From IMG/VR virus record IMGVR_UViG_3300032240_002387, positions 1-31,853 of that record: a DNA stretch of 31,853 bases, one strand, 5' to 3'. Under the pieces are notes generated by a model. That model saw only the letters and a program-made list of their open reading frames with translations, was not told the origin of the DNA and made no database searches. This DNA comes from a virus. Both the position numbers and the translations under genes were made by a program. Shown here piece by piece: positions 21,124 through 27,176 of the stretch (its first letter is position 1; each line of letters starts with the position of its first letter).

Positions 21124-23793
21124 TTAGGCCGTTTTATAACTACCATTCATATTTTGTGTTGTACCTACTTTCACACTATCCATCATTACTATACCTTCTT
21201 TGTTGAGTAATTGGTCAATAGCTGCTTTTACTTCACCAAGCGCTGCTACTACTGGTGATAAATCAATATTTACCGCACCTCCTCCACCACCTTCACCACC
21301 ACCTGTTAAATCAGTACCTACTTTAATTTTACCATCAGCACCATACATTGCTTTATCCTTTGGATCTAATTGAACTGATCCAAACCCTCCAGTCATTACT
21401 GGTCCTTTGCTTGGGTCAATTACACCATCTTTCATAGCGTACCCGGCCATAGCACCTAATACTGCTGCTAATCCACCTACAATCCATAAGGTTGCTGCAC
21501 CAAAAGTACTAGCTTCTGCTGTTACTGTTGCTGCGGCTGCTATTTCTGTTTGAATTGCTGCTTCTGCTGTTTTTCCTGCTATTAACGCTGGTATTTTTGC
21601 TAATTGAGCGAATATTGCTCCTTTAGATGCCCATTCCCATATTGATTTAGCTTTTGATACAAGCATATCTTTAATAGCCCACCCATATGCTATTACTTTA
21701 GTAGCTAACGTTTCGTTCTCTAAAGCTAAACTTAATTGTTTAAATGATAATTTTTCTCCTTCAGTAGCTAATGATATAGCTGCTTGAGCATTACCAAAAA
21801 CACTTGCTGTATTTTCTGCTATTTTACTTGTTAATGAAGCTGCTTGAAACCCTGCTTTTCGACCCATTATTGATGCTGATAGACCTTCTGTTACTGCAAT
21901 TGCTTTACCAATTCCATTTATAGCCATCATTGTTCCGTAAATACCTAAAAATATTCCCCCTATTATTTTAAGAGGAGTAGCCATGTAATTAATTACATTT
22001 AAGGCTCCACTTAATAAATCTAAGAATGAACCTAAAGGACCTGCCATTAAATCACCTACAATTTTTTGTAGTTTTTCCATAGCAGCATTGAATTTATCTT
22101 GAACATTTTGTCTTTCAAGGGCTTGTGCTGCTTCCTCTGCATTTACTTGAGCTAACGATTTACCAGACTTAACTGCTTCTTCTCTTTTTCTCAATTGTTC
22201 AGACAATTTATCGGATGTTGTTCCTAAAGCTTGTGCATAAGCATCTTGTGCTAACACATTCATTTGAGAGAACTTAGTAGCAGTCATACCTTGTTTGGCT
22301 AATTCTTCTGCTACACCAACCATATCACCCTGTAAAGCTAATGATCTAGCTTTTTCTAAGTTTAATGCTTGTCCTGTTAATAATTCTGCTTTTAATTCAT
22401 TTTCAATAGATGATTCAAAATTTAATAATGAACCTGCTTGTGATTTAGTATCTTCTAATGAAGTACCTAGGGCTTTCATAGATACTATTGCCTTAGCTAT
22501 ACGCTCAGGATTATATCCTAAATTAGCAGCTAATTGACCTGATACCTTAACAGCCTCAGCTAATGCTGATCTAAAATCAATACCAACTCTAAGTTGATTT
22601 CTTGCTGTTGCTAAACCTCTAACAAATGATTTATAAGTTTCTTCAGATGATTTACCTGATAAAACAGCATATCTTTGAACTTGAGCCGCTTCATCTGCTT
22701 GTAAACCAACTTGTTTAGTTAATTTGATTTGAGTTTCAAGTTGATCTGCTGAAAATTCATAAGCAAATCCTGTTGCTTTTACTAATTCACCAAATGCTTG
22801 AGTTAATGTTGCTGTATTTACATTTAAATTCTTTGAAGAATTTTCAATGCTAACCATTTTCTCTCTAAAGGCATCTGCTCTTTGAGTTCCATATCCTAAT
22901 TGCTTTCCTAATTCAACTGCTTGTGCATTTGCATTTAAAGCAGCTTTAAAGAAGAAATTAGCAATTTTTAATAATATAGTTAATTGCGTAACTGGATCTT
23001 GTAATGCTTGTCCTATTCCAGAAACTATTCCTTTCATTCCCGTCATTAATACATTCCATTTAGATCCGGTTTTAGCAACCTCTCTCATATCTTCTTTTAG
23101 ATTTTCAAAAAAGGTACTACTAATACCTAGTTTGCCTAAAGTACCTACAATGCCATCTACTATTTTTCCAGATATACCTAAAGTAGATAGAATTTTTTCT
23201 TCTTCTTTTAATCTATCTTTTACAGCTTTTTTTAAATTTTCATATCCTAATTCTTCCCCATTTAAAAGGTCAGTAGTAGCTTTAATTTGATCATTTAATA
23301 AAGCTTTTTCAGCAGCTAATGATGCTCTTCTTTTATCAGATAAATTTTTACTTTTTAGTTCTGATTCGATAGATTTTAAACGATCTTCATTTAATCCTTT
23401 ACTATTAATTAAATTTTTTCTTTCTATTTCTAATTTTTCAAGACTAGTTTGTAGTTGTTTTTTGGTAAGAGTAGAAATACCATCTTGATCATATTTTAAT
23501 TTGCTAGCAATGCTGCTTAATGCTTCAAACGATTTTTTAGTATCCTTTGCACCTTTACTTGTATTACCAACCTCAACAAGACTTTTTTTCAATATTTCAT
23601 AAAATGTATTAATATCTGAATTAAGGTTCTTTTGTTCGTTTCTTAATGAACCTAATTCTTTTCTAAAGTCTTCAGCACCACCAACCAATTTTTCAAAGGC
23701 TTTAGCATCAGAGATAGTAATATCTCTTAATTCTTTCATCAATTTAATTAACTCAGCGGCTTCGGCTGGGGTTATTGGTGTTGTATCCGCCAT
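21124..23793 (-). CDS. Tail tape-measure protein
   Basis: An 889-residue protein with the usual tape-measure layout. The N-terminal half holds long Lys/Glu/Leu-rich coiled coils (residues about 10-210, e.g. LEKLEIERKNLINSKGLNEDR), followed by Ala-rich helical repeats. Hydrophobic segments lie near residues 600-640 (IIGGIFLGIYGTMMAINGIG) and in LWIVGGLAAVLGAMAGYAM. The Gly-rich C-terminus (GGGEGGGGG) precedes a short helix. The protein scaffolds tail-tube polymerisation and sets its length; at the usual 0.15 nm per residue it implies a tail of roughly 130 nm. The order sheath, tube, chaperone pair, tape measure fits. It has its own promoter-like motif just after a terminator. Confidence 0.9.
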   Translation of the reverse strand: MADTTPITPAEAAELIKLMKELRDITISDAKAFEKLVGGAEDFRKELGSLRNEQKNLNSDINTFYEILKKSLVEVGNTSKGAKDTKKSFEALSSIASKLKYDQDGISTLTKKQLQTSLEKLEIERKNLINSKGLNEDRLKSIESELKSKNLSDKRRASLAAEKALLNDQIKATTDLLNGEELGYENLKKAVKDRLKEEEKILSTLGISGKIVDGIVGTLGKLGISSTFFENLKEDMREVAKTGSKWNVLMTGMKGIVSGIGQALQDPVTQLTILLKIANFFFKAALNANAQAVELGKQLGYGTQRADAFREKMVSIENSSKNLNVNTATLTQAFGELVKATGFAYEFSADQLETQIKLTKQVGLQADEAAQVQRYAVLSGKSSEETYKSFVRGLATARNQLRVGIDFRSALAEAVKVSGQLAANLGYNPERIAKAIVSMKALGTSLEDTKSQAGSLLNFESSIENELKAELLTGQALNLEKARSLALQGDMVGVAEELAKQGMTATKFSQMNVLAQDAYAQALGTTSDKLSEQLRKREEAVKSGKSLAQVNAEEAAQALERQNVQDKFNAAMEKLQKIVGDLMAGPLGSFLDLLSGALNVINYMATPLKIIGGIFLGIYGTMMAINGIGKAIAVTEGLSASIMGRKAGFQAASLTSKIAENTASVFGNAQAAISLATEGEKLSFKQLSLALENETLATKVIAYGWAIKDMLVSKAKSIWEWASKGAIFAQLAKIPALIAGKTAEAAIQTEIAAAATVTAEASTFGAATLWIVGGLAAVLGAMAGYAMKDGVIDPSKGPVMTGGFGSVQLDPKDKAMYGADGKIKVGTDLTGGGEGGGGGAVNIDLSPVVAALGEVKAAIDQLLNKEGIVMMDSVKVGTTQNMNGSYKTA

Positions 23794-23822: not shown

Positions 23823-23824
23823 AA

Positions 23825-23849
23825 AAAGCGCCTATTTTTTAGGCGCTTT
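23825..23849 (-). terminator. Intrinsic terminator overlapping the chaperone stop codon
   Basis: A perfect 10-bp stem (AAAGCGCCTA with TAGGCGCTTT) closes a 5-base loop and is followed on the minus strand by TTTTTATATTT. The stop codon of the 105-residue frame (23832-23834) lies inside the stem. It separates the chaperone transcript from the tape-measure gene. Confidence 0.85.
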
Positions 23850-24149
23850 CGTTGAATATGTGGGTTGTGATACGTTCGGTGTTAGTGGTTTTGATGATTG
23901 CTTTGTTTTATTTTCAAGTTGTTGTTGTTGGTTCTTAGCAGCCTCTGCTTCATCCTCATAAAACTTTTTCATCTTATGGAACGTAAATCTACGTAACCAT
24001 ATAGGCATATTATACACTGTATTCCAATCATATCCACCTTTTCCATGAAATACTATTTCGTGGATTTGGTCAAATATTATAGGTCTATCTTCCTGAGTCA
24101 GGCCAAAAAAAGTTAATTCCAACTGGAATCGAAATGCCCTCCTCCGCAC
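23832..24149 (-). CDS. Tail chaperone/hub C-terminal extension frame, probably made by frameshift
   Basis: An open frame of about 105 codons, +1 relative to the upstream gene, overlapping its last 65 bp. It encodes DRPIIFDQIHEIVFHGKGGYDWNTVYNMPIWLRRFTFHKMKKFY, a pattern I know from short T4-like tail genes, then a Gln/Lys-rich tail. No ATG opens it: the first possible starts are CTG at 24155 and GTG at 24149, the codons before TTFFG only overprint the upstream gene, and the first ATG is far inside (YNMPIW). This argues that it is reached by +1 (or -2) frameshifting from the gene at 24085-24837, giving a product of about 334 residues. A sequencing error in the T7 run could also explain it. Confidence 0.7.
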   Translation of the reverse strand: MRRRAFRFQLELTFFGLTQEDRPIIFDQIHEIVFHGKGGYDWNTVYNMPIWLRRFTFHKMKKFYEDEAEAAKNQQQQLENKTKQSSKPLTPNVSQPTYSTKAPKK

Positions 24150-24837
24150 CTTCAGGATAATAAGTCATATCAATATCTGGTTGGATTTCTGCATAATATT
24201 CACGTAGTGCTCTAGCATCTTTTGCTGTTAAACCATTATCAACAAAGTCACGAATAGTTGCTAATTCTCTTTTACCGTTGACTGATGTAATCATGTATTT
24301 TAAGCGAGTTGTAATTTCAAATGAGCCTTGTGGTGTGATTTTCTTTAAACCTTTAATTTCAGCATCAATTGCTTGTTCATCACCATGAGTTAATAACTTA
24401 AATGTTACTACATTTCCAGATAATGGCATAGTGAATGTAAATTCATTTTTACCTTCTTGAAATAATGATAAATCAACTTCCTTTTCCTTTAATGATGATA
24501 AATCAGCAGTTATTGCTTCTTCAGCACCTGTAGACGGATTATAATATCTAAATTGATATTCAGCACCATATCCTAAAATACGAGCTCCCAACAGAATTGC
24601 GTTTTTATCGCACACTAATATGTCATTAAAACTAACTGGTGTTACAATTAATGATTGCATGACTCTGTTAAGTACAGAACCATCTTTAATATAGTTAGCA
24701 TTAGTAAGAATATCTTCTTCTTTAGCTGTCATATATTTCATTTCAATTTCACCTTTAGAAAGTGGTGATTCTTTTGGATATAATAATCCTTTTGAAGGTA
24801 ACGAAACCGTTTCGGTTGGCATTTTAAAATCGCTCAT
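24085..24837 (-). CDS. T4-type baseplate hub / tail assembly chaperone protein
   Basis: A 250-residue protein with the opening pattern MPTETVSLPSKGLLYPKESPLSKGEIEMKYMTAKEEDILTN and later ILGARILGYGAEYQFRYYNP, characteristic of the T4 gp26-like baseplate protein family (Pfam T4_baseplate, from memory). It ends PVGINFFWPDSGR. The position between tail tube and tape measure is that of tail assembly chaperones in many phages. A longer frame exists to an apparent start at 24891, but those 18 codons run through a terminator and the promoter motif. The ATG at 24837 (MSDFKMP), 23 bp after that motif, is the right start. The last 65 bp overlap the +1 frame described separately. Confidence 0.82.
   Translation of the reverse strand: MSDFKMPTETVSLPSKGLLYPKESPLSKGEIEMKYMTAKEEDILTNANYIKDGSVLNRVMQSLIVTPVSFNDILVCDKNAILLGARILGYGAEYQFRYYNPSTGAEEAITADLSSLKEKEVDLSLFQEGKNEFTFTMPLSGNVVTFKLLTHGDEQAIDAEIKGLKKITPQGSFEITTRLKYMITSVNGKRELATIRDFVDNGLTAKDARALREYYAEIQPDIDMTYYPEGAEEGISIPVGINFFWPDSGR
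24105..24111 (-). other. Candidate slippery run for translational frameshift
   Basis: On the minus strand the end of the hub/chaperone gene reads AAC TTT TTT TGG, a run of seven T. A tRNA-Phe on the second TTT can re-pair with TTT after a +1 slip and continue as GGC CTG ACT CAG into the 105-codon frame. A -2 slip reaches the same frame. The overlap that allows shifting spans 24087-24164. No stimulatory hairpin is obvious. Confidence 0.5.
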
Positions 24838-24868: not shown

Positions 24869-24881
24869 ATAAAAAAAGAAA

Positions 24882-24900
24882 GCGTCTGCAAAGCAGACGC
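24882..24900 (-). terminator. Intrinsic terminator after the tail tube gene
   Basis: A perfect 8-bp GC-rich stem (GCGTCTGC with GCAGACGC) closes a 3-base loop, followed on the minus strand by TTTCTTTTTTT. It lies 28 bp after the tail tube stop codon and directly before the next promoter-like motif. Confidence 0.9.
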
Positions 24901-24928
24901 CTTCTAAAGAAAAGAAATATGAAGGGAA

Positions 24929-25414
24929 TTAGAAATTCAATACGCAATAGTCCATAGCAATAGTAACTGTTAAGTTAACTGCTGCTTCACTAGACCAATC
25001 ATATTCACCAAAGTTTGCAGTTTTTACATATGCACCTTTGATTACCCATTCGCTAACAATGTCACCTACTGGGCCTAATACGTTTAATACTAAATCTTTT
25101 TTATAAAAATCAGAATAACCATCACGGCCTGTTACTGATTCATGAGCCAAACGAGCCCATTCCATTACAGCCTGAGCACCACTTGGAGTGATTGGATCAT
25201 ATAATTCTAAGTTCATGTCTTGCCATTTAACTTTACCTTTTACTTTACGGTAAACGTTGATATGGTCAAGAACAATTTCACCTGCGTCAAATTGAGGAGA
25301 CGCTGCTTTCTTAATTAAATATGCTGGGATACCATCTACATACATGATGAAACGGTTCTGCACTTTTGGTTCGAAAGCGGTGAACATTATTTGGTTTGCG
25401 TCTAATACAGCCAT
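24929..25414 (-). CDS. Tail tube protein, T4 gp19 type
   Basis: A 161-residue protein of the contractile-tail tube family. Typical features are FEPKVQNRFIMYVDGIPAYLIKKAASP at the start, then EIVLDHINVYRKVKGKVKWQDMNLELYDP and the C-terminal strand AAVNLTVTIAMDYCVLNF. It polymerises as stacked rings around the tape measure and forms the channel for DNA. Length matches T4 gp19 (about 163). It follows the sheath gene by 46 bp, with a promoter-like motif 23 bp before its ATG and a strong terminator after it, so it can be transcribed alone at high level. Confidence 0.93.
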   Translation of the reverse strand: MAVLDANQIMFTAFEPKVQNRFIMYVDGIPAYLIKKAASPQFDAGEIVLDHINVYRKVKGKVKWQDMNLELYDPITPSGAQAVMEWARLAHESVTGRDGYSDFYKKDLVLNVLGPVGDIVSEWVIKGAYVKTANFGEYDWSSEAAVNLTVTIAMDYCVLNF

Positions 25415-25460: not shown

Positions 25461-27176
25461 TTACGCTGGGAATGTTGCGCCCGTTGGTAATACTGTGAAA
25501 TCTAACACAATGAATTCTGCTGTTTTACTTGGTTGTAAATAGATTTGACCAACTAATTGGTTTCTATCGATTACATCAGGTGTGTTATTAGAATCATCCA
25601 TTACCACTTTATAAGCATATAAACCTTGACGTTGAACTACTGATTCTAAATAAGGATTTGCAATGCTCATAAATCTGTTTCTTGTAGCTGCTGTATTTTG
25701 TTCAAATACTAATGAACGACCTACTTGACCTAAGAAACCTTTTAATGTAATTAATAAACGACGAACGTTAATTCTATCTAATGAAGTTGATTTTTTCTGT
25801 AATGTCTTTTGACCAAACGCTACAACACCTTCTCCAGGGAATGAAGCTAATGGGTTAACATTTACATCATATAAAGTATCGCGATCTGTTTGAGATAATC
25901 TTCTTTCAGCACGTAATACTGATCCAATTCCACCACGATTTAAACCTGCTGGAGCAAACCATTCAGCACCTACTTGGTCGTTGAATGCGAATACACCACC
26001 CATTACTACTGATGGAGGACACCATACAGCCTTACCTAAGTTAGAACTGAATAATTGTATCCATGGGTAGTAAGCCGCTCCGTAACTTGAACCATTAGCA
26101 GCAGCAGCTGAAACAGCAGCTGAAACATTAGCTCCGTAAGCTGTAGTATCGATAATTGCCATTGAATCACCTCTACCTTCACAAACTGCAACTACATCAT
26201 CTGAAATTGAACTTAAAGGGCCTGTACCTAATGTAGCACCTGGAACTAATAATAAGTTGAAACTGTAATCATCTTTATTTGATAATAAAGTTAAAGCATC
26301 TGCATAATCAGCAGCAACGAATCCTTGACATTCACCTGCAGCTGTTGTATTTGCTTCGAAGAAAGAACCTGTTCTACTTGTTGCTGCAACACCACCACTA
26401 AATGAACCACTAGCAGATGTTGGTAAAGAACCACTATAAGTAGTTGCTTTATAATTTCCGTTATTATCGATTGAATCGATAGTATTGTTTACTGCTTTAA
26501 CACGAACATATGAAGAACCACCATCAAAACTACCTGAAATTTCTACTAAGCCTTTTGAAGCATTGTAAACAGGTTTTGTATCACCTACTACACGAGAAAT
26601 ATAATTTGGTTGAGCTGGGTCTAATGATAAGTTTGTAAATGTTTCTAAAACATTTTTATTATTTGCATTGTCATCACCACGGCGAATTACTAAAGTAAAT
26701 GTACCTTTTGTAGTGTTAACGTTAGTTACTTCCCAACGTACGTTTTCTTTAGATCCTGAAACTAATGCACCTGATACTTCTGTACCACCTGCATTATTTG
26801 CAACATCTCCCCAATGGGTTGATTCTAATACAAATGAAGCAGTTGGGTTAATTGATGCTGATACTGATGAACTTGCATAAGTATCATAAGAAGAACCACT
26901 GATGATTTTTGTTACTAATAATGAATTTCCACCGTTATTGAAGTATTCTTTAGCAGCTAATGATGTAAAGTATTCATAGTAGTTACTTCCACTTTTGAAT
27001 ATATCACCAAAAACTGACAAATATTCACTATAAGATGTTACGACTGTTGGTGCCATTGGGTTACCTTTAACTGTAGGACCAACAATAGCAGCTCCAACTT
27101 CTTGAATACCTCTTTGTACTAAACTCTTATCGTTTTCGCGAGTAAAAACGCCTGGAGAGATAATTTTTTCTGCCAT
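25461..27176 (-). CDS. Tail sheath protein, T4 gp18 type
   Basis: A 571-residue contractile sheath subunit. The N-terminus (ISPGVFTRENDKSL) and AIVGPTVKGNPMAPTVVTSYSEYLSVFGD are typical of the sheath family, as are the C-terminal region NRFMSIANPYLESVVQRQGLYAYKVVMDDSNN and the ending AEFIVLDFTVLPTGATF. The middle part (about residues 100-290) is Ser/Thr/Asn/Gly-rich and is likely the variable surface domain. Sheath contraction drives the tube through the envelope. The tube gene follows directly. A promoter-like motif lies 38 bp before the start. Confidence 0.95.
   Translation of the reverse strand: MAEKIISPGVFTRENDKSLVQRGIQEVGAAIVGPTVKGNPMAPTVVTSYSEYLSVFGDIFKSGSNYYEYFTSLAAKEYFNNGGNSLLVTKIISGSSYDTYASSSVSASINPTASFVLESTHWGDVANNAGGTEVSGALVSGSKENVRWEVTNVNTTKGTFTLVIRRGDDNANNKNVLETFTNLSLDPAQPNYISRVVGDTKPVYNASKGLVEISGSFDGGSSYVRVKAVNNTIDSIDNNGNYKATTYSGSLPTSASGSFSGGVAATSRTGSFFEANTTAAGECQGFVAADYADALTLLSNKDDYSFNLLLVPGATLGTGPLSSISDDVVAVCEGRGDSMAIIDTTAYGANVSAAVSAAAANGSSYGAAYYPWIQLFSSNLGKAVWCPPSVVMGGVFAFNDQVGAEWFAPAGLNRGGIGSVLRAERRLSQTDRDTLYDVNVNPLASFPGEGVVAFGQKTLQKKSTSLDRINVRRLLITLKGFLGQVGRSLVFEQNTAATRNRFMSIANPYLESVVQRQGLYAYKVVMDDSNNTPDVIDRNQLVGQIYLQPSKTAEFIVLDFTVLPTGATFPA

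Follow-up and report, generated by a model that had tools for sequence, protein, structure and literature searches.

How an open reading frame with no ATG of its own comes to be translated is the question raised by one locus in the window, a 31,853-nucleotide stretch of viral DNA from IMG/VR record IMGVR_UViG_3300032240_002387. The gene that this frame overlaps (24085–24837, minus strand) ends in a TAG at 24085–24087, and its coding-strand 3′-end reads AAC TTT TTT TGG CCT GAC TCA GGA AGA TAG. The A7 run on the plus strand at 24105–24111 is a T7 run on the coding strand, read in the 0 frame as TTT TTT T(GG). Starting at 24164, the +1 frame stays open as far as a TAA at 23832–23834 and encodes IHEIVFHGKGGYDWNTVYNMPIWLRRF; ahead of its conserved block it contains no ATG, its only other potential start codons being a GTG at 24149 and, deeper in the frame, a TTG. 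The terminal TAG, the lack of an ATG and the T7 run within the overlap had all been reported in a first-pass annotation of the letters and are directly visible in the window. The +1 frame carries a 90-residue C-terminal block, and the computed +1 fusion is 334 residues long, as that annotation had predicted. The comparative evidence points, with high probability, to a programmed +1 frameshift in a T4-type tail-assembly chaperone that would yield a short and a long product.

All features of the locus lie on the minus strand. A tail sheath gene (25461–27176) is located upstream, in gene order, of the gene for a T4 gp19-like tail tube protein (24929–25414; phrog_4542, E = 1.6e-23). The tape measure gene (21124–23793) encodes 889 aa that share 26.8% identity over 601 aa (E = 7e-48) with the protein annotated as tape measure in Flavobacterium phage immuto. 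The chaperone gene sits between the tail tube and tape measure genes, as in the G/GT type, and the location originally proposed for it holds. Two strong hairpins resembling intrinsic terminators flank the chaperone gene, one in the gap that separates it from the tail tube gene (24877–24905) and the other ahead of the tape measure gene, over the +1-frame stop codon (23824–23850). Given these flanking hairpins, the chaperone gene may be its own transcription unit.

The short product of 250 aa, with the C-terminus ...VGINFFWPDSGR, matches phrog_150 (“baseplate hub”) with an E value of 7e-9 and Pfam PF12322 (T4_baseplate) with an E value of 9.4e-5 and 22.6 bits, slightly under the cut-off of 24.5. 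Among the aligned relatives, 51 of 74 match PF12322 (best E = 6.5e-77). On these matches, the gene is assigned to the T4 gp26/gp51-type tail-assembly chaperones of the PF12322 family, as the short form TAC-N. It had initially been labelled hub/chaperone; “hub” is the old T4 name, and the protein is now viewed as a tail-assembly chaperone. The two parts, with the frames of the window unchanged, were folded separately by AlphaFold. The short form was modelled with a pLDDT of 94, and its Foldseek matches, with a best E value of 1.4e-19, were hub assembly proteins of T4-type baseplates and phage proteins annotated as hypothetical. A PDB fold search with the short form returned no significant match; 2ob9_B, the HK97 tail chaperone, ranked sixth and had the highest probability (0.23) among the best 50 rows and a TM score of 0.45 on the target, but an E value of 1.6, and the likeness of the modelled short form to that chaperone is only suggestive. 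The +1-frame extension (23832–24104), which starts with GLTQEDRPIIFDQIHEIVFHGKGGYDWNTVYNMPIWLRRF and would form the T domain of the long chaperone TAC-NC, is modelled as helical (helices at 6–22 and 37–71, pLDDT 79).

Within this genome alone, TTTTTTTGG occurs once against 1.5 occurrences expected, which is no more than chance, so the significance of the site rests on comparison with relatives. Eighty close and medium relatives were fetched from IMG/VR, and further scans used as queries the homologues from three phages (Microcystis Mel-JY01, Flavobacterium immuto and one with a 484-kb genome) and, at the DNA level, the 16-mer. This gave 379 loci, with 307 distinct ends among the matches listed, and 305 distinct relatives with an alignable site; these relatives are not independent samples, and the site counts run over related sequences. 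The 16-base cassette CTTTTTTTGGCCTGAC (24097–24112) is present in at least 120 stretches of IMG/VR. Of the 80 nearest relatives, 79 carry it without a single change, and all 79 have the downstream frame in +1; the lone exception (L029) carries an indel slightly upstream of the site, near the 3′-end of the gene. In the +1 frame, the extension is 52–92% identical among relatives. The same +1 layout is found in the cultured phages Flavobacterium immuto, Microcystis Mel-JY01, Rhodothermus RM378, Listeria LIS04 and Streptococcus GXN1. In immuto, the open reading frame immuto35A_232 (L082, 4839–4949), which precedes the tape measure gene and is annotated as a “hypothetical protein”, lies in +1 and appears to be the C-terminal end of the long chaperone, overlooked in the annotation.

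Twelve bases of the cassette, TTTTTTTGGCCT, are nearly invariant across the 305 distinct relatives, and the block follows in +1 in nearly all of them. Over 299 distinct sites, entropy is 0–0.18 bit at most of the 12 positions and 0.49 at one, while upstream wobble positions vary freely at ~1.6–1.95 bits. Past the cassette, the second base of the +1 codons becomes the low-entropy position, which indicates that the reading constraint changes frame there. Beyond the stop, the open frame has a median length of 241 nt in +1 versus 29 nt in -1. The first slip codon is TTT in 288 cases and TTC in 8, and the second is TTT in 267 and TTC in none, compared with a TTT:TTC ratio of 1992:566 across these genes. 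Dual coding of FFWP and FFGL would also account for part of the 12-base conservation. The frame relation and the T-run site are thus conserved among homologues, and the programmed-frameshift reading put forward in the first-pass annotation is supported as the source of a long tail-assembly chaperone.

That annotation had left the slip at +1 or -2. The final frame fits either, so variants of the site are needed to discriminate between them. The distinct site types are TTT TTT TGG (255), TTT CTT TGG (28) and TTC TTT TGG (9), followed by TTT CTA TGG (3), CTT TTT TGG (3) and TTT TTT TAC (2); TTT CTT TAC and TTT CTA TTC are among those seen once, and phage RM378 (L086) has TTT TTT TGG AAT with the block in +1. 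In 303 of the 305 sites, a cognate tRNA can re-pair at +1, moving from UUU onto UUU or UUC at codon 1 or 2, although the slip codon differs among lineages, being codon 1 in TTT CTA TGG and codon 2 in TTC TTT TGG. A -2 slip, which would add one extra Phe, is reportedly used by the phage Mu chaperone, and the T7 run would let UUU re-pair two bases back and reach the identical final frame. Cognate -2 re-pairing is, however, impossible in 42 of the 305 distinct sites (five site types, chiefly TTT CTT TGG, TTC TTT TGG and TTT CTA TGG), all of which keep the T block in the +1-type frame; the Mu-type pattern, in which the P-site tRNA re-pairs two bases back in every member, fails there. Because +1 works in 303 of 305 sites and -2 is excluded in 42, +1 is the likely direction and a -2 slip at the T7 run is improbable. 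Nor does the site form a -1 heptamer of the X XXY YYZ type. In all 250 canonical sites, TTT TTT is preceded by C, G or A and never by T, although T accounts for 40% of third bases in these genes, more than any other base; the heptamer T TTT TTT is thereby avoided, the -1 frame is shut by a stop within 5 codons in 91%, and the extension lies in the +1 frame.

The T domain could instead be a separate protein, made from a non-ATG start or through re-initiation close to where the first gene ends, and the strong Shine-Dalgarno-like element upstream of the site would suit such a start. The two sites that offer no cognate +1 slip, L258 (TTC TTG TAT) and L263 (TTC CTT TGG CCA), are followed by a T block in the other frame, with its own ATG a few bases past the stop, and in Pseudomonas phage Cygsa01 the block is a separate TAATG-coupled gene. 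Some relatives therefore live without the frameshift, and L258 and L263 are, judged by their sequences, a natural switch from frameshift to separate start. As a general explanation, this is very unlikely. An ATG before the block, which the first-pass annotation had said would count against a frameshift if conserved in homologues, is absent in 202 of 277 relatives, and 115 of the 277 have no ATG, GTG or TTG in the +1 frame ahead of it; in several, that frame opens with a TAA immediately before ACTTTTTTTGG. A separate start also leaves unexplained the invariant T7GGCCT cassette and its loss exactly where an ATG appears. An independent start was accordingly rejected for most relatives and accepted for L258, L263 and Cygsa01. 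Slippage of RNA polymerase on the T7 run, a coding-strand homopolymer of seven, could likewise put some mRNAs in frame, but the TTTCTTTGG, TTTCTATGG and TTCTTTTGG lineages have T runs of at most four and the same frame; since several lineages lack a homopolymer, transcriptional slippage was rejected as highly improbable. A sequencing or assembly indel, with a single true frame, has next to no probability. Homopolymers are error-prone, and L029 does carry an indel, but ~300 distinct contigs, drawn from many samples, show the same frame relation, as do cultured phages. The stop codon is conserved along with its distance, and cultured immuto has the site TTT CTT TGG, which is no homopolymer. A run of six T in the raw reads had also been named as a finding that would undo the frameshift, and these hundreds of independent contigs and immuto exclude it.

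In the +1 frameshift proposed here, most ribosomes would make the 250-residue short chaperone and terminate at the TAG at 24085. In a minority, with the A site holding UGG or the second UUU, peptidyl-tRNA-Phe on UUU would move ahead by one base within the T7 run (UUU U to UUU), and reading would continue with GGC CUG ACU. These ribosomes would bypass the TAG and produce the 334-residue long chaperone, which gains a helical T domain. If the two products work like those of lambda G/GT and T4 gp26/gp51, the short form would coat the tape measure, and a few long forms would recruit tail tube subunits. As a tail-assembly chaperone, the gene would help give the phage tail its correct length. Family assignment, gene order, the conserved cassette and the +1 position of the T block are seen in the sequences; the slip itself, its direction (+1, not -2), how often it happens and how the two products share the work are inferred.

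Single-sequence folding of 60 relatives gave no stem-loop signal for a downstream RNA structure (median z of -0.4 to -0.7). Upstream, the Shine-Dalgarno-like stretch GGAGGAGGG (24137–24145) lies ~26–34 nt from the slip codons. Such a stretch is found 20–40 nt upstream of the site in ~78% of relatives, compared with at most 26%, and mostly less than 15%, in other 20-nt stretches of the gene. Across 286 relatives, anti-Shine-Dalgarno pairing at the element is ~-6.9 kcal/mol, versus -3.5 kcal/mol after synonymous codon randomisation. The residues encoded at the element vary, and some lineages shift or lack it. In prfB and dnaX frameshifting, the Shine-Dalgarno element is spaced 3–14 nt upstream, so at ~26 nt the element is too distant to act directly on the slipping ribosome in the way it does in those genes. 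A trailing or re-initiating ribosome held at the element might, speculatively, push the slipping ribosome forward.

Cyanophages (Kyanoviridae) provide a homologous arrangement with a different direction of slip. Their gp26 gene and small “gp51” open reading frame hold homologous G and T parts in the same order, with the slippery string at the same FF codons. An hhalign comparison of the window clade with cyanophage gp26 scored 60.8, against at most 24.8 in 100 column shuffles, and that of the two T blocks scored 29.9, against at most 16.4 in shuffles. Unlike in the window, the cyanophage T block (..HHKYSLTEIENMMPWERDIYV..) is in the -1 frame, and all 79 distinct ends carry the heptamer T TTT TTC, one of them reading ..AGT TTT TTC GCA TAG. 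The cyanophage Shine-Dalgarno-like element is ~10 nt upstream, with only a modest excess; ~10 nt is the classic distance. In Synechococcus phage S-SCSM1 (L387), the T block is off the frame of the other cyanophages after TTTTTTC, probably because of a one-base indel in the deposited genome. Outside the cyanophages, the site is T TTT TTT in Xanthomonas phage XacN1 (L393) and Stenotrophomonas phage RAS14 (L394), where the -1 frame holds an open block, and Listeria phage LIS04 and Streptococcus phage GXN1 (L392; TTC TTT CGT) have an open block in +1. The site TTC TTT CGT resembles the influenza PA-X site. A genome comparison described cyanophage “gp51” as ~20% of the T4 length and similar to the T4 C-terminus (PMC3037559). 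On the evidence here, this “gp51” is part of a frameshift extension.

T4 itself belongs to the same PF12322 family, but has two separate genes where the window has one gene and a frameshift. T4 gp26 (208 aa) and gp51 (249 aa) both match PF12322 (E = 8.8e-64 and 3.9e-52), and gp51 consists of that domain and ~48 additional aa that align with the cyanophage T block; T4 thus carries a short-form gene and a fused long-form gene. The short form of the window clade scored 37.4 against gp51 by hhalign (shuffles at most 24.3). The cyanophage T block scored 49.0 against the gp51 C-terminus (shuffles at most 17.3), whereas the window T block scored 18.2 directly (shuffles at most 17.1), so that homology of the window extension with the gp51 C-terminus is supported through cyanophages and is weak directly. 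That gp26 and gp51 are short and long chaperones is already published (Vladimirov, Gautam and Davidson, 2022, Virology 566:9-15, as cited in passages of PMC10885494 and PMC12846349), and one such passage cites the same work for poly-T -1 signals in T4-like chaperones (PMC12846349). A rather doubtful, though conceivable, scenario is that of a single family that switched direction at one shared pair of Phe codons, with -1 in cyanophages and +1 in the window clade, controlled mainly by the bases flanking the T run, with a T4 duplication or a separate start elsewhere, and with the upstream Shine-Dalgarno-like element (acting through a trailing or re-initiating ribosome) possibly at work in the +1 clade as a stimulator of a new type.

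Tail-chaperone frameshifting as a kind is already known, and frameshifted tail chaperones of the lambda G/GT type were reportedly described by Xu in 2004. The window resembles lambda G/GT and other frameshifted chaperones in the position between tail tube and tape measure genes, the short and long products and the slip near the 3′-end (reviewed in PMC5009743); lambda G/GT differs in being -1 and is likened to it by gene layout. Among +1 cases, the archaeal HSTV-2 chaperone is very likely +1 (PMC5009743), and forward shifts are annotated among SEA-PHAGES frameshifted genes (PMC10885494). These share with the window the +1 direction in a tail chaperone but belong to other phage groups, and are likened to it by direction. 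The prfB (RF2) gene shares the +1 slip of a YUU codon onto UUU, and CTT TGG of the immuto clade is close to CTT TGA of prfB. Unlike prfB, which has a stop in the A site and a Shine-Dalgarno element ~3 nt upstream, the window has TGG or TTT in the A site, its Shine-Dalgarno-like stretch ~26–34 nt away and, as far as is known, no autoregulatory role.

As far as the open literature was searched, a +1 version within the T4-type chaperone family, homologous by sequence to -1 versions, looks new. Well-supported bacterial +1 sites without an A-site stop are few, and a paper on frameshift prediction reports that a general forward motif has yet to be identified (PMC10885494). A near-invariant +1 cassette with many natural variants, beside a homologous -1 family, makes the direction of slip directly testable. 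The proposed frameshift also explains the small “hypothetical” or “gp51” open reading frames ahead of the tape measure gene in phage annotations. It would give the T4-type chaperone family members that frameshift; in a 2016 review, this family was still the exception, G-T frameshifting being described as widely conserved “except T4” (PMC5009743).
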